Positions 2,597-23,856 of a stretch of DNA of 32,021 nt are shown here, piece after piece. Source of the DNA: Spirochaetae bacterium HGW-Spirochaetae-2 (lineage in GTDB: Bacteria > Spirochaetota > Spirochaetia > Sphaerochaetales > Sphaerochaetaceae); the NCBI GenBank assembly GCA_002839355.1, contig PGXW01000042.1, positions 1 to 32,021 on the forward strand, read 5' to 3'. The notes beneath the pieces were generated by a model, which ran no database searches, was not told the origin of the DNA, and saw only the letters and a program-made list of their open reading frames with translations. The translations under genes and the position numbers were made by a program. Position 1 is the stretch's first letter, and each line of letters opens with the position of its first letter.

Positions 2597-4345
2597 TTAC
2601 AATGCCTGTTTCGACGCGATCCTCTCATGCAACATACCGATGTAGGAATCCAATGCAATCCCGTTTTCCTGCTTGCCGTCCCGATATCGGACCGAAACCG
2701 CCCCATGTTCCTCTTCGCGCTCCCCAAGCACCAGCATATGGGGCACCTTCATCTTCTGGGCATTGCGGATCTTGGCGTTCATCCGGTCGTCACTATCATC
2801 CAGATACGCTCGGATTCCCTGTTTTTTCAAAGCATCCAGGACCTTTCGGCCATAATCGTTGAACACCTCGGAAACAGGAACCACACAGACTTGCTCCGCG
2901 GCGAGCCACAAGGGGAAGGCACCTGCGAAATGCTCCAGCAAGACACCGAAGAACCGTTCGATCGAACCAAGCAGCGCCCTATGGATCATATACGGCCGTT
3001 TCTCCACACCATCGGTATCGACAAACGTCATATTGAACCGCTCGGGTTCATTGAAGTCGAATTGAATGGTCGAAAGCTGCCACTCGCGCCCAAGCGCGTC
3101 CTTTATCTTCAGGTCGATCTTCGGTCCGTAGAAGGCTCCGCCACCTTCATCCACCCCATACTCCAACCCTTCGGCTTCAATCGCCTTGCGCAACGACTCG
3201 GTCGCGGCATCCCAGCGTTCGGGTTCCCCGACACTCTTCTCGGGTCTGGTGGACAAATAGGCACCGATCTCCTCGAATCCAAAGGACCGGAGCATCGCCA
3301 ACGAGAATCTGAGCACTTCTTTGATTTCTTCATCCATTTGCTCCGGGGTACAGAAGATATGTGCATCGTCTTGGGTAAATCCCCTGACCCGCATGAGTCC
3401 ATGGAGCGCCCCGGCCTTCTCGTAGCGGTATACGGTTCCCAGCTCTGCCCATCTGAACGGCAGCTCGCGGTAGGAGTGCTTCGAGTTGCGATAAATCATG
3501 ATATGGAACGGACAGTTCATGGGCTTGGCGTAATAGTCCGCCTTATCCATCTCCATGGAGGAGTACATGCTCTCCTTGTAGAATCCCAAATGGCCCGAGG
3601 TCTCCCACAGCCAGGCTTTTCCCACATGCGGGGTATAGACCATCTCATACCCGTTGGCATAGTGCTGGTCCTTCCAAAAGTTCTCGATTGCCATGCGGAT
3701 GCGGGCTCCACGCGGGTGCCAATAGACCAACCCGGGACCGGCCTCCTCGTGGAAACTGAACAAGTCGAGCTCTTTTCCCAACTTCCGGTGGTCCCGCTTC
3801 TCGATCTCCTCGAGTTTCTGCAGGTAAAGACGCAAGTCCTTCGGATTTGTCCATGCTGTCGCATAGATGCGGGTCAACATGGGGTTGGTTTCCTTTCCCC
3901 TCCAATAGGCACCCGCGGTGTTCAGCAACTTGAAGGCTTCAGGATTGAGTTCCTTGGTCGAAGCCACATGCGGCCCGCGGCACAAGTCGGTGAATCCGCC
4001 CTGATTATACAGGGAGACCTCCTCGTCCGCCGGTATCGCATCGATCAGTTCCTGCTTGTAGATTTGGTCCGCGAACAGTTTTTTCGCCTCGTCACGTGAA
4101 ACGACTATCCGTTTGAATTCCTTGTCCTCCTTGATGATCAGCTTCATCCGATCGCTGATTTCATCCAAGTCGTCCGCTGTGAGCGTACGCGGAAGATCAA
4201 AGTCATAATAGAATCCGTTGTCAATCGCGGGACCGATCGCAATCTGGGCAGTCGGGAACATCTGCAAAACCGCTTCAGCCATCACGTGTGACATCGAATG
4301 CCGTACCTTGGACAGTTTTTCGTCCATGAGTTCTTTCCCAGCCAT
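2597..4345 (-). CDS. thrS: Threonyl-tRNA synthetase lacking the N-terminal TGS domain
   Basis: This class II synthetase charges tRNA-Thr with threonine. The start chosen is ATG 4345, with GGAAGG just upstream; the longer frame to 4384 has no ribosome site. The product is 582 residues, about 60 shorter than the E. coli type, because it begins directly at the editing domain. Editing residues are present (HxxxH at 16-20, CRGPH at 122-126). Catalytic zinc ligands are C278, H329 and H455, and the anticodon-binding domain fills the C-terminus from about residue 485. Absence of TGS is, as I recall, shared by other spirochaete ThrRS. The gene is preceded by a 360-base T-box leader with its own promoter and is followed by M32 peptidase and pgsA genes. 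Confidence 0.97.
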   Translation of the reverse strand: MAGKELMDEKLSKVRHSMSHVMAEAVLQMFPTAQIAIGPAIDNGFYYDFDLPRTLTADDLDEISDRMKLIIKEDKEFKRIVVSRDEAKKLFADQIYKQELIDAIPADEEVSLYNQGGFTDLCRGPHVASTKELNPEAFKLLNTAGAYWRGKETNPMLTRIYATAWTNPKDLRLYLQKLEEIEKRDHRKLGKELDLFSFHEEAGPGLVYWHPRGARIRMAIENFWKDQHYANGYEMVYTPHVGKAWLWETSGHLGFYKESMYSSMEMDKADYYAKPMNCPFHIMIYRNSKHSYRELPFRWAELGTVYRYEKAGALHGLMRVRGFTQDDAHIFCTPEQMDEEIKEVLRFSLAMLRSFGFEEIGAYLSTRPEKSVGEPERWDAATESLRKAIEAEGLEYGVDEGGGAFYGPKIDLKIKDALGREWQLSTIQFDFNEPERFNMTFVDTDGVEKRPYMIHRALLGSIERFFGVLLEHFAGAFPLWLAAEQVCVVPVSEVFNDYGRKVLDALKKQGIRAYLDDSDDRMNAKIRNAQKMKVPHMLVLGEREEEHGAVSVRYRDGKQENGIALDSYIGMLHERIASKQAL

Positions 4346-8176: not shown

Positions 8177-10026
8177 AACTGGTTCCTCTGGTCGGAATCG
8201 GCAATGAATCCGTCGGGAACTTCCCCGTTGGGGACTTGGAACGCCTCGATCAACGAGTTGAGCATGATTTCCGTTTCCGCCGCATTCTCCCCGAGCAACG
8301 AGGCTATCTGCTGGACAGTCTCCAAGCTCTTCTGTATGACCGCATCGGCCTTTTTCACAACCGTTTCCCGCCGAATGGTCGGCGTGGTGATATCCTGGAA
8401 CATGGCTCCCACCAGACGATGGTTTTCTATTGTGAAGAAGGTGACCTTCAGGAATTTCCCTTTGAAGTGCAGCCGGTACTGGCTCGTCTTGCCCTCGGTT
8501 TCGAACTGTTGGGAAAACTCACCATGGAAGGGAACAAACCGATGGAGCGGAAGCCCAGCCACCCTGTCGACCGCCACCGCTCCCAGTTCACCATCCAAAT
8601 CGGCGAACAGGGAGAGAAACGGACTGTTGCAATCGACTATGGAAAGATTCCGGTCGACAATAACCACCCCCATGGGCAACGTACGGAGCATGACATCGAT
8701 CTTGCTTTGTGCCAGCTTTCGCATCTTGGTGACACACATTTCCACCTCGGCCATGCCGTCCAGGTAGGCAATCGCCATATCCCTGCAGGAATTGTATCCG
8801 CAACCACCACAATTCAGTTCGTCGCCGACACTGTTCTTTCCCAAATCGGACAGGGCTTTCGCAATCGCCTCTTCCGAAAATACCCTGCCGGGGGCCCTCC
8901 CCAGGAAATAGTCCCCGGGATTCGTCTGATGCGTCTGCGCAAGCAGTCCGTACCCCTTGTCGAGCATCATCTGTACAAAATCGGAGGGAGGGGAAAAGAC
9001 CGGCCTGTTCGCCGACAACCGCTTCTTCGTAAACCGTGTGGCAGAGGCTTTGCTTACAGCAGATGATCGGAAATTGGACTTGCCCGGTCCATAGATGCAG
9101 CCTCCCTCGCAATTGAGCAATTCGAGAAACGGGGAGGGTTCGTTTTCCCCGGACTTGGCCAGATCGCACAAGGTCTCCATGACATGGTCGACTCCCGAAA
9201 CGGAGACCGCCTGGTCCTGGAACACATCCTTTCCAATACCGAACGATGCGACCATGCCCCCTTCGACCGGATAGAGGGTACTTTCCCCAGCCTCGGCAGG
9301 AAGCATGGCACCGACAGATTCCGTTGTGATCCCATGGTCCTGGATTTCCTTGAGGTCGAGCCCTTCGCTTGCGAACCACGAACGTAACTCCCGAAACGTG
9401 AGGGCCAGATCGGGATACCCGGGCCGTTGGTCCGCCTCAACCTTTTTCGCGATACACGGGCCGATAAACACGATGCCGATATCCTGACCATACAGGTGCC
9501 TTAGATACGCGCTATGGCATTGCAAGGGTGATGGAATCGGAGACAGGTTCCCGATCAATTCCGGATGGTACCTATGCACCAGTTCCACAACAGAGGGACA
9601 AGCAGTGGATATCCATGGGCAGGATCCATTCTTCGCGATATGGTCATCGATAGCCGCCGAGACCAATGTGGCTCCTATCGCGGTCTCGGAGATGTCCGAA
9701 AAGCCCAAGGTCCGCAAGGCAACCAGGACAGCTTCGGGGGTTTCGGTGAACTCAGAGGCATACGAGGGGGCAAGGGATACAAACACCCGTCTTTTGGATG
9801 TGATCAGTTCCCTTGCACGATAGACATCGTTTCGGATCTTCTTCGCATGCGAGGGACACGTGTCGACACATCTTCCACAGGTGATGCATCGGTCCCGCAC
9901 AACGACGGCACGTGCATCCTTGACTTGGATGGATTTCACCGGACACGCCCGGACACATTTGTAGCAGTCCCTGCATTCGGTGAGCTCCGTGTAGATCGGA
10001 TACAGTCTCGAATTCCCGTTACCCAT
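8173..10026 (-). CDS. Putative sensory [FeFe] hydrogenase, group C-like, with PAS domain
   Basis: This 617-residue protein has two 4Fe-4S ferredoxin motifs (C18/21/24/28, C47/50/53/57), an H-cluster domain (80-315), a second 4Fe-4S motif of the CGGCGYNSC type (C406/409/414/431), a PAS domain (about 445-545) and a helical, possibly coiled-coil tail (552-597). H-cluster ligands are C143 (L1), C191 (L2, PCIAKKVE), C306 and C310 (L3). The residue before C143 is Ala142, where catalytic enzymes have the proton-transfer cysteine; this is a feature I recall from sensory HydS proteins. The start ATG 10026 has GGGAG upstream; the longer TTG start lacks support. It overlaps the upstream ferredoxin gene by 8 bases and the phosphatase gene by 4, suggesting redox/H2 sensing feeding that phosphatase. 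Confidence 0.87.
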   Translation of the reverse strand: MGNGNSRLYPIYTELTECRDCYKCVRACPVKSIQVKDARAVVVRDRCITCGRCVDTCPSHAKKIRNDVYRARELITSKRRVFVSLAPSYASEFTETPEAVLVALRTLGFSDISETAIGATLVSAAIDDHIAKNGSCPWISTACPSVVELVHRYHPELIGNLSPIPSPLQCHSAYLRHLYGQDIGIVFIGPCIAKKVEADQRPGYPDLALTFRELRSWFASEGLDLKEIQDHGITTESVGAMLPAEAGESTLYPVEGGMVASFGIGKDVFQDQAVSVSGVDHVMETLCDLAKSGENEPSPFLELLNCEGGCIYGPGKSNFRSSAVSKASATRFTKKRLSANRPVFSPPSDFVQMMLDKGYGLLAQTHQTNPGDYFLGRAPGRVFSEEAIAKALSDLGKNSVGDELNCGGCGYNSCRDMAIAYLDGMAEVEMCVTKMRKLAQSKIDVMLRTLPMGVVIVDRNLSIVDCNSPFLSLFADLDGELGAVAVDRVAGLPLHRFVPFHGEFSQQFETEGKTSQYRLHFKGKFLKVTFFTIENHRLVGAMFQDITTPTIRRETVVKKADAVIQKSLETVQQIASLLGENAAETEIMLNSLIEAFQVPNGEVPDGFIADSDQRNQL

Positions 10027-19471: not shown

Positions 19472-20014
19472 ATGCCCCTATCCAGAAGAAGAATCATTGT
19501 AGTGGTCCTGACGATCCTACTTATCGCAAGTACCGCAAGCGCGGCCGGCAAGGCTCCACAAGGTCTCAACTCCTTCTGGACCATCGACCTGGAGGGAAAG
19601 GAAGTTACCCAGGAGATCTTTTCCCCCTACAAACTCACATTGGTGAACGTGTGGGCAACCTTTTGCAGTCCTTGCCTCCAGGAGATGCCCGACTTGGCCG
19701 AGCTGCGTGACGAGTTCGCGACCCGGGGAGTGAACGTGATCGGGATTGTGACCGACGTCTACCACTCCGACCAGACCATATTCATGCGAAACTTGGGTAC
19801 GGCCGCGTATATCATCGAACAGACTGGAGCCGACTACACGCATCTGTTGCCGTCGCAGGACTTGCACAACCTGCGGTTGAAGGATGTCCAGGTGGTACCT
19901 GAGACGTTTTTCGTTGACAGCAAGGGCAATATAGTGGGAAAAACATATTATGGAGCGCGAAGCAAGTCGGCATGGAAAAGCGTAATCGAATCCACATTGG
20001 CCCAACTAGACTAA
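19472..20014 (+). CDS. TlpA-like exported thioredoxin
   Basis: This 180-residue thiol-disulfide protein has an N-terminal signal or anchor helix (about 6-24, cleavage possible after ASA) and a thioredoxin fold with the active site CSPC (C65, C68) followed by EMP. The cis-proline loop is in VQVVPETFF. The family reduces or oxidises extracytoplasmic disulfides. ATG 19472 is chosen because GAGG precedes it by seven bases and the signal peptide begins here; the frame is open further upstream. The next gene, a CXXC micro-protein, starts inside its 3' end, and a 4Fe-4S membrane protein follows, so electrons from the membrane FeS protein may reach this thioredoxin. Confidence 0.88.
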   Translation: MPLSRRRIIVVVLTILLIASTASAAGKAPQGLNSFWTIDLEGKEVTQEIFSPYKLTLVNVWATFCSPCLQEMPDLAELRDEFATRGVNVIGIVTDVYHSDQTIFMRNLGTAAYIIEQTGADYTHLLPSQDLHNLRLKDVQVVPETFFVDSKGNIVGKTYYGARSKSAWKSVIESTLAQLD

Positions 20015-20136
20015 TTTCCCTTCTGCTTGTCATTGCAGGCGCAATCGCCATCATAATCGGCGTACTGCAAGGCGAAGCACTCATCGTGCTCAAGAAAGCA
20101 ACGTTGATCTGCTTGGAGTGTATCGGTCTTGGCTAG
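19972..20136 (+). CDS. CXXC micro-protein, CD1871A-like, single-pass membrane
   Basis: This is a 54-residue frame. It begins with ATG 19972 inside the tlpA-like gene (43-base overlap) and ends at TAG 20134-20136. A basic N-terminus (MEKRNR) is followed by one hydrophobic helix at about residues 14-32 and a conserved-looking end, GEALIVLKKATLICLECIGLG, with the CLEC motif (C47, C50). I recognise this as the CD1871A family of CXXC-containing small proteins, which I recall occurring next to TlpA-like and 4Fe-4S membrane proteins in clostridia and relatives. A role in thiol-electron transfer is inferred. It has no strong ribosome site and is probably translationally coupled. Confidence 0.82.
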   Translation: MEKRNRIHIGPTRLISLLLVIAGAIAIIIGVLQGEALIVLKKATLICLECIGLG

Positions 20137-21040
20137 AAGCAGGTTCAGGCAACATGACCGGAGGAGAACCCTGGTCCAATTTCTCACGGCCATCATTTCC
20201 AACGCCTATATCGTCGGATTCCTTGAAGGCAGGATCTATCAGGGTGATGCGAAGGCGTTCTGTGTGCCGGGTTTGAATTGCTACGCCTGTCCGGGAGCCC
20301 TGGGCTCCTGTCCGATCGGCTCACTGCAGGCTGTTTTGGGCTCGCGGGACAAAAGCTTCTCCTTCTATGTCGGCGGTTTCCTGGTGGCGGTGGGAGCCAC
20401 GATGGGGCGATTCGCCTGCGGATGGCTCTGTCCCTTCGGTTGGTTCCAGGACCTGCTCCACCGCATTCCCATACCCAAGCGGTGGAAACGGTTGCGCAGG
20501 CTTCCCGGCGAGAAATACCTCTCCTTGACACGCTATGCTGTTCTTGTGGTCCTAGTGATCCTGCTGCCGATGTACGTGGTGGACATAATCGGGCAAGGCA
20601 GCCCTTGGTTCTGTACGTGGGTATGCCCGTCCGGCACATTGTCGGGATTGCTGCTGTTGGCCGGCAACCCGGGATTGCGGAGCGTTGCAGGGTGGCTGTT
20701 CGCGTGGAAGAACCTCATCCTCGCGATCACGGTGCTCTCCTCAATCATCATATATCGCCCGTTTTGCCGGTATGCCTGTCCGCTTGGTGCGATTTACGGA
20801 TTGTTCAATCCCGTTTCACTCTACCGGTTTGAAATTGATGAAAAAGCTTGCACCTCCTGCGGCATGTGTCAACAAGTGTGCAAGCTCGATATCCCGGTGT
20901 TCCAGAAACCCAACAGCAGCGCGTGCATTCGTTGCGGGGATTGTATCGCCGCATGTCCCCACACGGCGATCCTTCATGGCTTCAAGACGAAGGTCACAAC
21001 CCCAGACGTTTCACAAAACGCATCAGATTATCCATCGTAA
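20129..21040 (+). CDS. Polytopic membrane 4Fe-4S ferredoxin-type protein (NapH/YccM-like)
   Basis: This 303-residue membrane protein carries cysteine pairs at membrane boundaries: C45/51/54/61, CGWLC (97-101), CTWVC (162-166) and CRYAC (213-217). A C-terminal cytoplasmic domain holds two 4Fe-4S clusters (C241/244/247/251 and C266/269/272/276). Proteins of this class (NapH, NosR, CcoG relatives) move electrons across or along the membrane. The only in-frame start near the beginning is TTG 20129, overlapping the micro-protein stop by 8 bases. It completes a three-gene unit with the TlpA-like protein. Its last 47 bases overlap, tail to tail, the end of the glycerate kinase gene. Confidence 0.87.
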   Translation: MARSRFRQHDRRRTLVQFLTAIISNAYIVGFLEGRIYQGDAKAFCVPGLNCYACPGALGSCPIGSLQAVLGSRDKSFSFYVGGFLVAVGATMGRFACGWLCPFGWFQDLLHRIPIPKRWKRLRRLPGEKYLSLTRYAVLVVLVILLPMYVVDIIGQGSPWFCTWVCPSGTLSGLLLLAGNPGLRSVAGWLFAWKNLILAITVLSSIIIYRPFCRYACPLGAIYGLFNPVSLYRFEIDEKACTSCGMCQQVCKLDIPVFQKPNSSACIRCGDCIAACPHTAILHGFKTKVTTPDVSQNASDYPS

Positions 21041-22127
21041 GCGCCATATCCTGCGGAGCCCGTTCCTTTACATGCTTGAAATCGCGGGCAATCCGGTTGA
21101 TGCTGAAAATCGCCGAGACTCCTTCGTCGTAGGCGGCATCGATCGAATCTCCGATATCACCGACCACAGCGACCAACGGAACATTGTGACGTTTGGTCCT
21201 CCGGGCGATTCCAATCACGACCTTTCCCCTGAGGCTCTGGAAATCGATCTTTCCTTCACCGGAGAAGACCATATCCGTCCCTTCGAGCATCTTGTCGAAT
21301 CCAACCGTATCGAGTACGACCTCGATGCCCATTTCCAATTTGGCATCGAAGAAGGCAACCATCCCAGCCCCCATGCCTCCTGCGGCTCCGGCTCCGGGCA
21401 ACTGGGAAACCTCTTTCGAGAGGTCACGCGAAATCGCCGAGCCCAATGATTGCAGTTGACTGTCGAGGAATCGGACCATATCTTCATCGGCACCCTTTTG
21501 GGGCCCGAAGACGTATGCGGCTCCGTGCTCACCATACAAGGGATTGTCGATATCGCACATGGTGACGATGTCGATTCCATCCAATAGTGGATTGCGGCCT
21601 TTCATATCGATGGAGGCTATGTTCGCCAGTGTTCCACCCGTCGGGACAAAGGAATTTCGCTGTGCGTCCAGGAACCGCACGCCCGCGGCCGCTGCGGCCC
21701 CGGTTCCCCCATCGTTGGTGGAACTGCCACCCAAACCGACGACAATCCGCTTGCAACCCCTTTGTGCGGCATGGAGCATCAATTCGCCCACACCGTAGGT
21801 TGTGGTCTGGTCGGGGCGCTTGTCATCGCCGACCAACGGCAATCCGGCGCACGCCGCCATCTCGATGATCGCCGTGTCGTTGTCCACGATGCCGTAGAAC
21901 CCTTCCATCCGGTCGAAATATGGTCCGGTGACCTCGACTGTTACCTTCTCTCCACCCATTGCGGTCAAGAAGGAGTCGACACTACCCTCACCCCCATCGG
22001 CAACCGGCAAAGAAACGACTTGTGCCGAAGGATAGTGTGCGAGAATGGCGGTTTCCATGATCGAACAGACTTCCGTCGAACTCATGGTTCCCTTGAACGA
22101 ATCGGGAATCAAAATAAACTTTTTCAT
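20994..22127 (-). CDS. glxK: Glycerate kinase, GarK/GlxK family
   Basis: This 377-residue kinase phosphorylates D-glycerate (to 2-phosphoglycerate in this family). Visible motifs are DSFKGT (9-14), PVADGGEGS (41-49), GLGGSSTNDGG (131-141) and GAAGGMGAGM near residue 270. ATG 22127 is chosen, with AGGAG five bases upstream; the frame opens earlier without support. It lies 48 bases after the DUF92 gene and is probably in the same transcript. Its 3' end overlaps the convergent 4Fe-4S gene. Confidence 0.93.
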   Translation of the reverse strand: MKKFILIPDSFKGTMSSTEVCSIMETAILAHYPSAQVVSLPVADGGEGSVDSFLTAMGGEKVTVEVTGPYFDRMEGFYGIVDNDTAIIEMAACAGLPLVGDDKRPDQTTTYGVGELMLHAAQRGCKRIVVGLGGSSTNDGGTGAAAAAGVRFLDAQRNSFVPTGGTLANIASIDMKGRNPLLDGIDIVTMCDIDNPLYGEHGAAYVFGPQKGADEDMVRFLDSQLQSLGSAISRDLSKEVSQLPGAGAAGGMGAGMVAFFDAKLEMGIEVVLDTVGFDKMLEGTDMVFSGEGKIDFQSLRGKVVIGIARRTKRHNVPLVAVVGDIGDSIDAAYDEGVSAIFSINRIARDFKHVKERAPQDMALTMDNLMRFVKRLGL

Positions 22128-22175
22128 TGCGGCTCCTATTCGGTTTTCGATAGTTTGCATATTCGTACCGTAAAC

Positions 22176-22964
22176 TTAGAGAACAATCAAGCTGAAGCCA
22201 CAGCCGACCAGCACCGCGATGGCATTGCTCAGGAAGTTCACGACATCGTTGTCGATCCATCTGATGCCGCGGCAAAGCTCCAGCTTCACTCCGTCCCGGC
22301 TCTCGTGTTCGGTAATCTGCTTGCGTTTGGGATCGTAGTAGTGCCCTTGGACCGTTGCTCCCAAATAACTGTCAGCAACGGAGCCGATTGCTCCGGAAAC
22401 AGCGACTATGGAGGCGAGGAACAACCACGAGGAGTCCGAATAATCGGCGAATGTCGCGTACCAGGCCAGGGCGATCATGACCGAACCCACCAGACTGCTG
22501 GCGGTTCCCAACCACGTCACACCACCTGACATTCCGGCGGGTACAGGCTTGAAGGTGATACCCGCCTCTCCTGCCCAGGTGTCTGCTGTGCTGGAGGCCA
22601 CGGCGACACCGAACATCACCAAAGCAATGCGTCCGCCATCGATCCCGTAGAGTAGCGCGGATGCACCCGCAAGCCCGCCGTTGGCCATGACCTGGGCCCA
22701 ATCCCGTGTTCCGCCCTTCTTCTGGATTCCCGCCTCGATGGATGGGGATACGGCCCGGCTCACTTTACCGAGGATATTGGCAGTGATGAAGAAAAGCATG
22801 AGCAGGACCCATCCCCCGAGTCCTGTGAACCTGTAGGCCAAAAATCCCACGACCAATGCCGAGGCAGCACCCGAATACGTCAGCCATTTGAGGGCTTTCG
22901 CCACCACAGCGACACACAGGTTCACCGCAAGGGGAACGATATAGATCCAGATACCGCTGTTCAT
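22176..22964 (-). CDS. DUF92 (TMEM19/VTE6-like) integral membrane protein
   Basis: This 262-residue protein has about seven hydrophobic segments. The DUF92 hallmarks are KKGGTRDWAQVMANGG (81-96), a segment with DTWAGEAG, and a GSVADSYLGA block. The plant member VTE6 is reported to phosphorylate phytyl-phosphate to the diphosphate; function in bacteria is mostly unassigned. The ATG overlaps the stop of the upstream kinase-like gene (ATGA), with GGAG four bases before it. The pairing suggests two successive phosphorylations of an isoprenoid alcohol; this is inference from homologues. Confidence 0.85.
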   Translation of the reverse strand: MNSGIWIYIVPLAVNLCVAVVAKALKWLTYSGAASALVVGFLAYRFTGLGGWVLLMLFFITANILGKVSRAVSPSIEAGIQKKGGTRDWAQVMANGGLAGASALLYGIDGGRIALVMFGVAVASSTADTWAGEAGITFKPVPAGMSGGVTWLGTASSLVGSVMIALAWYATFADYSDSSWLFLASIVAVSGAIGSVADSYLGATVQGHYYDPKRKQITEHESRDGVKLELCRGIRWIDNDVVNFLSNAIAVLVGCGFSLIVL

Positions 22965-23629
22965 GCGACTCCGAGAAACAGGAAGGCAATCAATGTCGTT
23001 CCGAGCGGAACACTGAGGTTGTCCAACCCGTGGGGTGTGTAGGCTTCAAGCAGGGCTGCAACACCCGAAATGACGACAAGGGAGATCCACCAGGTGAAGC
23101 TCCATACGGAAGGAAGGGAATATCCGAGGGAGAACCCTGTTATCACCAATGCGGTCACCACGAACATGACAAGGGTTCCGAGAAGCGACTTGTCGCCACG
23201 GATCTTTGTGGTTCCCCAATGCTTGCCGATTATGGCGGCGAGACCATCGCCATAGCCCATGGTAAGAGCTCCCATACCACAGGCCCACATGGGAATGGTA
23301 TTCGTATAACCTGCGATAACCAGGATCAAAAGGGAGATGGGGAAATAGACGAGTCCCAGGTTCCTGCGCTTGTCGCTGATTCCCAGGACATTCGCAACCC
23401 CGGTGTAGACTGCGATCCCGTTGACCAGGATGAAGAGTATGGGACCTACCAATGCATAGGTGAGGGAGTCGAAACTCGCTATGAGGATAAACCACCAGTT
23501 CGAGACACCAATGTGGATAAATTTGCGTACGAACTCGGCGCTGAAGCGGCCGGTTTTCGACAGCAACATACCTATCCCTATGATTATCCCTATGAAAACA
23601 AGCGAAAGAATCAACCCTAGATTATTCAT
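22961..23629 (-). CDS. Phytol/polyprenol kinase-like membrane protein (VTE5/SEC59/DGK1 family)
   Basis: This 222-residue polytopic protein resembles CTP-dependent lipid-alcohol kinases. Landmarks are RKFIHIG near residue 34, the segment GMGALTMGYGDGLAAIIGKHWG (about 120-141, the cytidylyl-family core) and a following KSLLGT. The start is ATG 23629: no ribosome site precedes any candidate, but a good promoter ends six bases before this ATG, which suggests a leaderless mRNA. The frame extends to ATG 23704, but that region holds the promoter. It is the first gene of a unit with DUF92 and glycerate kinase. Confidence 0.83.
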   Translation of the reverse strand: MNNLGLILSLVFIGIIIGIGMLLSKTGRFSAEFVRKFIHIGVSNWWFILIASFDSLTYALVGPILFILVNGIAVYTGVANVLGISDKRRNLGLVYFPISLLILVIAGYTNTIPMWACGMGALTMGYGDGLAAIIGKHWGTTKIRGDKSLLGTLVMFVVTALVITGFSLGYSLPSVWSFTWWISLVVISGVAALLEAYTPHGLDNLSVPLGTTLIAFLFLGVA

Positions 23630-23635
23630 TGCCAC

Positions 23636-23664
23636 AATATAGGGTAAAATATGTCGTTTTTCAA
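23636..23664 (-). promoter_or_regulatory. Promoter of the phytol-kinase-like operon, abutting the ATG
   Basis: On the minus strand, -35 TTGAAA (23659-23664) and -10 TATATT (23636-23641) are 17 bases apart. Six bases later comes ATG 23629, so the expected start of transcription falls on the start codon. Confidence 0.65.
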
Positions 23665-23856
23665 GATATTGACAGACCATATTACCCATGCTATTTTTAT
23701 TCATGCTTTCGTTTTTGAGTTGCAGCTGGTTCTTTTAATCTAGTTTCCTTCGAGTCGTCTTCATCGTATTCCTAAAGACCGATTAAATTGACTCAAGCAT
23801 GCCGCCAAATGAAGCAATTTTAGTTAAACAGGCTTAGGACCTGTGGAGGATGCTTT

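Follow-up and report, generated by a model that had tools for sequence, protein, structure and literature searches.

The closest described systems to the locus analyzed here are the membrane proteins CcdA, DsbD and ScsB (PF02683), in which one polytopic dithiol protein takes electrons from cytoplasmic thioredoxin, and ferredoxin:thioredoxin reductase (FTR), which turns ferredoxin electrons into dithiol electrons. FTR is a soluble enzyme, cytoplasmic or plastid. An example of CcdA acting with an exported thioredoxin is the CcdA-Etrx-MsrAB2 system of Streptococcus pneumoniae (PMC3914529). NapH/MauN (TIGR02163) and the NosR/RdhC modules are characterized by two CX3CP motifs at inner span ends. 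In PMC5928378, the NapH membrane part is proposed to oxidise quinol, changes in the CX3CP motifs impaired NapH function and, for the first motif, abolished that of NosR, and the role of the motif in RdhC is given as unknown, either a disulfide or a cluster.

Within the window, the whole stretch of 32,021 nucleotides that was analyzed, three overlapping genes encode a TlpA/ResA-like thioredoxin-fold protein, a micro-protein and a NapH-like membrane iron-sulfur (FeS) protein. As in the CcdA/DsbD/ScsB systems, the gene of the membrane partner adjoins that of the exported TlpA-like thioredoxin, to which the partner is predicted to supply electrons, and the genome distributions of the two systems are complementary. 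In contrast to these systems, the module lacks PF02683, combines FeS clusters with a separate CxxC micro-protein in place of one polytopic dithiol protein, and has ferredoxin as its predicted electron source. The two CX3CP motifs are common to NapH/MauN and the NosR/RdhC modules, and the two C-terminal ferredoxin clusters to NapH; unlike NapH/MauN, the FeS protein has six extra invariant cysteines in predicted outer loops and an obligate micro-protein partner, and it stays below the TIGR02163 cut-off, with no recurrent nitrate-reductase genes. FTR resembles the module in what the latter would do with ferredoxin electrons, and none of the three proteins matched the FTR family at E 0.1.

The module appears to be widely conserved and would carry electrons from cytoplasmic iron-sulfur proteins across the membrane to an exported thioredoxin, a task that falls to CcdA/DsbD in many other bacteria. 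We consider it probable, at roughly 0.6, that the trio is a membrane system reducing the exported TlpA-like protein, with the micro-protein as a thiol carrier, and as such a ferredoxin-type counterpart of CcdA. If true, the ferredoxin pool of a sizeable set of Clostridia and treponemes would be coupled directly to the surface of the cell. Among open-licence papers, we found no explanation of how fermenting anaerobes lacking CcdA/DsbD keep their exported thiols reduced, nor any account of the function of the trio or the micro-protein. The new element is the assembled evidence for a putative CcdA-like supply line made from other parts, comprising the six extra FeS cysteines, the Shine-Dalgarno-like CxEC codons, the FeS-thioredoxin fusions and the anti-correlation with CcdA/DsbD.

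Three overlapping genes and their products

All three plus-strand frames were confirmed at their positions in the window (Table 1), and the serial overlaps given in the original prediction, 43 bases between the TlpA-like and micro-genes and 8 bases between the micro- and FeS genes, match exactly.

Table 1 Positions of the module features in the window
Feature	Position	Strand	Remarks
TlpA/ResA-like thioredoxin-fold protein	19472-20014	+	180 aa
CD1871A-family micro-protein	19972-20136	+	54 aa, ATG start
NapH-like membrane iron-sulfur (FeS) protein	20129-21040	+	303 aa, TTG start
Shine-Dalgarno-like GGAG in CLEC codons (TTG GAG)	20115-20118	+	upstream of FeS TTG start
8-base micro/FeS overlap	20129-20136	+	FeS TTG start in the final micro-gene codons

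The TlpA-like protein scored above the Pfam cut-offs for PF00578 (47.5 bits, cut-off 26) and PF08534 (47.2 bits, cut-off 26.6), and below those of the NCBIfam models for ResA, DsbE and TlpA (50.9, 48.6 and 45.5 bits against cut-offs of 170, 123.15 and 230). It starts with a hydrophobic export signal (residues 1-19) and carries the active site WATFCSPC. Across 52 aligned homologues, C65, C68, E71 and the cis-proline Pro143 are invariant, with CGPC (23) and CSPC (13) as the prevailing forms of the CxxC. A lipobox-like motif is present in 34 of these 52 proteins and absent from the window protein.

The micro-protein matched NCBIfam NF040920 (CD1871A) with 46.8 bits (cut-off 32) over the complete profile (1-38 of 38), and it had no match in Pfam. 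It displays the two features of this family, one hydrophobic stretch (helix 13-33) followed by a C-terminal CxxC, and consists of a basic amino terminus, the membrane helix, a second carboxy-terminal helix and the terminal CLECIGLG with Cys47 and Cys50. The carboxy terminus is CLECIGLG and not the CLECIG reported from the sequence. The description as a single-helix protein is probably incorrect, as AlphaFold2 yielded two helices, 13-33 and 36-51 (pLDDT 79, pTM 0.39), the second containing CLEC near its end. That the gene is easily missed is true in part, since a curated NCBI model exists for the family; the family is already named, and its name conveys a motif and no function. In the open-licence literature, no paper naming CD1871A was found, and two papers that contain CD1871 together with difficile refer to such a gene number in passing, in a table of CodY targets and for an ABC transporter permease; neither concerns the micro-protein. 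The genome of the window contains one copy of the family, a second match at E 0.5 being noise.

The junction between the micro- and FeS genes was compared in a named-genome scan with the pattern [IV]C[LM]ECIG[LI]G, from which we used the best 80 of 557 confirmed loci, mostly of Clostridia and some of Treponema; these loci were selected by the motif, so that cysteine conservation in them holds by construction. In 57 of the best 80 of 557 loci, counting reading frames open for more than 200 codons, a TTG at an identical offset, 8 bases ahead of the micro-gene end, starts the FeS frame. GGAG is spelled by the [LM]E codons of CxEC in 63 of them, and the conserved glutamate is encoded by GAG in 65 of these 80 loci versus 171 of 448 glutamates in FeS frames (Fisher p 5e-13). 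We read the CxEC codons as doubling as a Shine-Dalgarno-like site for the FeS gene, written into the redox motif. Given such a role, L/M and E may be conserved for reasons other than catalysis; the role does not account for the conservation of the two cysteines.

The FeS protein matched PF12801 (54.0 bits, cut-off 22) as well as Fer4 domains, and 18 cysteines are invariant in all 74 aligned sequences. Twelve of them correspond to cysteines of E. coli NapH, namely two inner CX3CP motifs (Cys97/101 and Cys213/217) and the eight ligands of two C-terminal ferredoxin clusters. The other six (Cys45, 51, 54 and 61; Cys162 and 166) lie in two loops in which NapH has no cysteines. A profile comparison by hhalign with E. 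coli NapH gave a probability of 98.7; the inner CX3CP motifs align along with the carboxy-terminal half, and the alignment covers only part of the FeS membrane domain. The NapH/MauN model TIGR02163 yielded 69.6 bits against a cut-off of 213.05, with its best stretch at 192-281 only, and we therefore did not file the protein as NapH. The label NapH-like holds for the two CX3CP motifs and the two ferredoxin clusters; the missed NapH/MauN cut-off and the six extra cysteines set the protein apart from NapH/MauN proper.

The six extra cysteines probably face outward in the predicted topology. By charge balance, the amino terminus (+3.4), loop 2 (+4.0) and the part after TM4 (+3.8) are placed inside and loop 3 (−0.8) outside. 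The net charge of loop 1, +3.5, gives no support to an outer placement under the positive-inside rule and is not decisive. AlphaFold2 modelled the protein with a pLDDT of 89.9, and a Foldseek search of the model against the PDB returned no match at E < 0.001, the meaningful matches being ferredoxin-like parts; for the membrane fold, no solved relative emerged from the PDB. PF02683, the CcdA/DsbD membrane domain, was absent from the FeS protein and the micro-protein at E 0.1. At two loci (L041, 6137-7510; L060, from 4473) the FeS protein has an N-terminal extension of about 150 residues, with two hydrophobic stretches around a small domain.

Distribution, fusions and relation to CcdA/DsbD

Among 61 genomes, made up of the window's own plus 60 relatives, 23 carry the micro-family; by tblastn, an FeS gene adjoins at all 23 loci and a TlpA homologue lies within the 3-kb locus at 21. 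Together with the NF040920 score, these counts argue that the micro-gene is no chance frame. Both cysteines of the micro-protein are invariant in alignments of 37 and 38 rows, which were chosen by the motif. Over the 36 codons that lie outside the two overlaps, the window and one other locus (L012) differ at 21.5 of 28.5 synonymous and 14.5 of 79.5 nonsynonymous sites; most pairs show saturation at synonymous sites, and the median dN-to-dS-type ratio of 0.49 in the 31 pairs with dS < 1.5 is the weaker figure. Two findings would have refuted the original prediction, a small frame free of purifying selection and a lack of co-conservation among the three genes. Neither was obtained: amino-acid changes in the frame are selected against, and the three genes are found together repeatedly in both Clostridia and spirochaetes.

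An FeS HMM match lies directly downstream of the micro-gene in 77 of the best 80 of 557 loci. In one exception (L060) the sequence stops after another 670 bases, where a longer frame resembling the L041 one has just begun; another (L104) shows an assembly duplication and has its FeS gene at a greater distance, and the third (L070) has no FeS HMM match. TlpA HMM matches within 3 kb were obtained for 73 of these best 80 loci, upstream in 62 and downstream only in 11, a count that leaves out a match 4 kb away (L084). TlpA is absent nearby from seven of the best 80, two of them cut by contig ends, and its linkage is looser than that of the FeS protein.

The pairing of the micro-protein with the FeS protein was assessed in 243 evenly drawn Clostridia. 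Of these genomes, 38 have the micro-family (36 over the cut-off) and 37 a full-length FeS protein, each with at least 325 bits and the next best match at 170; all 37 FeS-positive genomes also carry the micro-protein. The sole micro-only genome of the 243 (G219) has a homologue reading AISLHYIGIG, in which Ser and Tyr replace both cysteines, and gave no FeS match at E 1e-20. This cysteine-less homologue is located at 9712-9825 on the minus strand of locus L140. A weak micro match in genome G289, with WLEP for CLEC, is a separate gene beside TlpA; in the same genome the FeS gene lies at the end of another contig and follows immediately on a CLECIGIG tail. In these two genomes, retention of the cysteines goes along with that of the FeS protein, the loss side resting on one genome. 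Two further, apparently degenerate micro-proteins were set aside, one resembling a one-base shift in an A run (G570) and the other a misjoin (G784).

At two loci (L009, L018) the FeS protein and the thioredoxin are fused, a single predicted span (305-323 and 296-314, respectively) separating the two parts. In both fusions the ferredoxin side is positively charged and the thioredoxin side strongly negative; these opposite charges across a single span argue that the ferredoxin part lies inside and the thioredoxin part outside. Beside the FeS-thioredoxin fusion, L009, L018, L107 and L108 have the micro-protein fused to the carboxy terminus of a longer membrane protein. The extended micro-proteins of L018 and L107, with three and five predicted spans, would place the CxxC outside; that of L009, with four spans at the threshold used, would place it inside.

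The module is anti-correlated with CcdA/DsbD, weakly so in Clostridia. In Spirochaetota, PF02683 was found in 6 of 42 micro-positive versus 141 of 204 micro-negative genomes (p 6e-11), in Clostridia in 13 of 38 versus 113 of 205 (p 0.02) and in the window's own family in 3 of 19 versus 11 of 18 (p 0.007), all with kinship ignored. By genus, that family divides into 10 with the module only, 7 with CcdA only, 2 with both and 3 with neither (p 0.03, kinship ignored). All 17 CcdA loci inspected in the family have a thioredoxin-like gene adjoining or fused; one of the 17 is from the window's own genome, and in six the thioredoxin was judged by eye and not by HMM. The 580-584-residue DsbD matches of three genomes (G000, G001, G022) have their own thioredoxin domain and stand outside the 17. 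The window's own genome holds the module, CcdA and a DsbD-like thioredoxin fusion, so that the module is not the sole supplier there. The CcdA gene of this genome (L155, contig C25) occurs with a thioredoxin-like gene (GADSCAPC) amid genes that by eye are arsenic-resistance-like, and this CcdA/thioredoxin pair may be an acquired set.

In three of the best 80 of 557 loci (L029, L071, L103), TlpA has UGA at the first active-site cysteine, and the genomes of all three carry full SelB. The micro-gene of genome G157 (L106) has an in-frame UGA at 3012, at the first cysteine of CxEC (V-UGA-LECIGIG), with an intact FeS gene directly downstream and a SelB of 385.5 bits (cut-off 242.25); no TlpA HMM match was found within 6 kb or 18 kb around. 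A hairpin after this UGA is equalled or bettered by 4 of 80 cysteine-form controls, 1 of 28 among the low-GC ones. In 393 genomes of one order, 140 of them with a match, the matches listed contained no internal stop and hence no second UGA micro-protein; with a single case, a sequencing error is possible. The data on G157 are suggestive of a selenocysteine micro-protein, a lead.

Electron path and competing readings

In the proposed relay, electrons would enter the cytoplasmic ferredoxin domain of the FeS protein, cross the membrane via its inner CX3CP centre and then the outer cysteines, and pass to the carboxy-terminal CxxC of the micro-protein on the outward side of the membrane. This CxxC would reduce that of the TlpA-like protein, which in turn would keep extracytoplasmic thiols reduced; ferredoxin-type electrons would here serve as cytoplasmic thioredoxin does for CcdA/DsbD. 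We infer cluster occupancy, every transfer step, ferredoxin as the electron source and the final substrate. The path originally suggested, from ferredoxin clusters through membrane cysteines to the exported thioredoxin, is partly borne out, as the strict co-occurrence of micro-protein and FeS protein, the one-span FeS-thioredoxin fusions and the anti-correlation with CcdA/DsbD favour it; electron transfer to the exported thioredoxin draws its support from distribution and gene order. On this path the motif-named CD1871A family would gain a testable function, the micro-protein being predicted to have two cysteines, one membrane partner and one exported substrate.

The thiol-carrier role has its main competitor in a reading in which the micro-protein is a structural subunit of the FeS protein whose CxxC, together with the outer CX3CP (Cys162/166), ligates an iron-sulfur cluster, the complex still sending electrons outward. 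The six invariant extra cysteines in the outer loops and the two of the micro-protein add up to eight, enough for two clusters; furthermore, the micro-protein is tied more closely to the FeS protein (37 of 37) than to TlpA, and the loss of both its cysteines coincides with FeS absence in G219. The UGA at the first cysteine in G157, with SelB, would in this single case point to a selenol and not to a ligand, and we regard the ligand role as unlikely, albeit a serious alternative. Less probable still is a quinol supply to the FeS protein, as has been supposed for NapH, with the rest of the relay unchanged, a reading that can overlap with either the thiol-carrier or the ligand form. The hhalign alignment of the inner CX3CP motifs and C-terminal half is in line with it, but only part of the membrane domain aligns, and the module occurs in Clostridia and treponemes. 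Many of these organisms lack quinones.

Topology alone would permit flow in both directions, including a system that, like DsbB, oxidises exported thiols and dumps the electrons into ferredoxin. We assign the outward direction on the basis of CGPC/CSPC and the invariant glutamate of TlpA, typical of ResA-type reductants, and of redox potentials, by which electron transfer from thiols to ferredoxin is thermodynamically uphill; inward flow is accordingly highly improbable. A wider version of the preferred relay, that the module is a further iron-sulfur-based ferredoxin:extracytoplasmic-thioredoxin reductase in which a micro-protein of about 45-55 residues (one perhaps with selenocysteine) is the outer dithiol or completes an outer cluster, and that it replaces CcdA/DsbD in many anaerobes, is more tentative, with odds slightly short of even.

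Genes around the module

Clustering the 765 called genes of the best 80 of 557 loci revealed no third partner or fixed substrate gene, such as a methionine sulfoxide reductase, the next cluster being present in 7 of the 80; nitrate-reductase genes likewise did not recur among the neighbours at these loci. A cluster of Rrf2/HypR-like regulators (4 of the best 80) and one of RclA-like disulfide oxidoreductases (3 of the best 80), each named from one member, were set aside on account of too few loci. In the window, the module lies between an upstream EamA-type transporter and, on its downstream side, a convergent glycerate kinase, neither with an evident tie to it. A 247-residue membrane protein (22961-23704, minus strand), without a Pfam or NCBIfam match at E 0.1, overlaps a DUF92 protein by 4 bases. 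The FeS gene shares its last 47 bases (20994-21040) with the glycerate kinase frame (20994-22160, minus strand), the two being arranged tail to tail.
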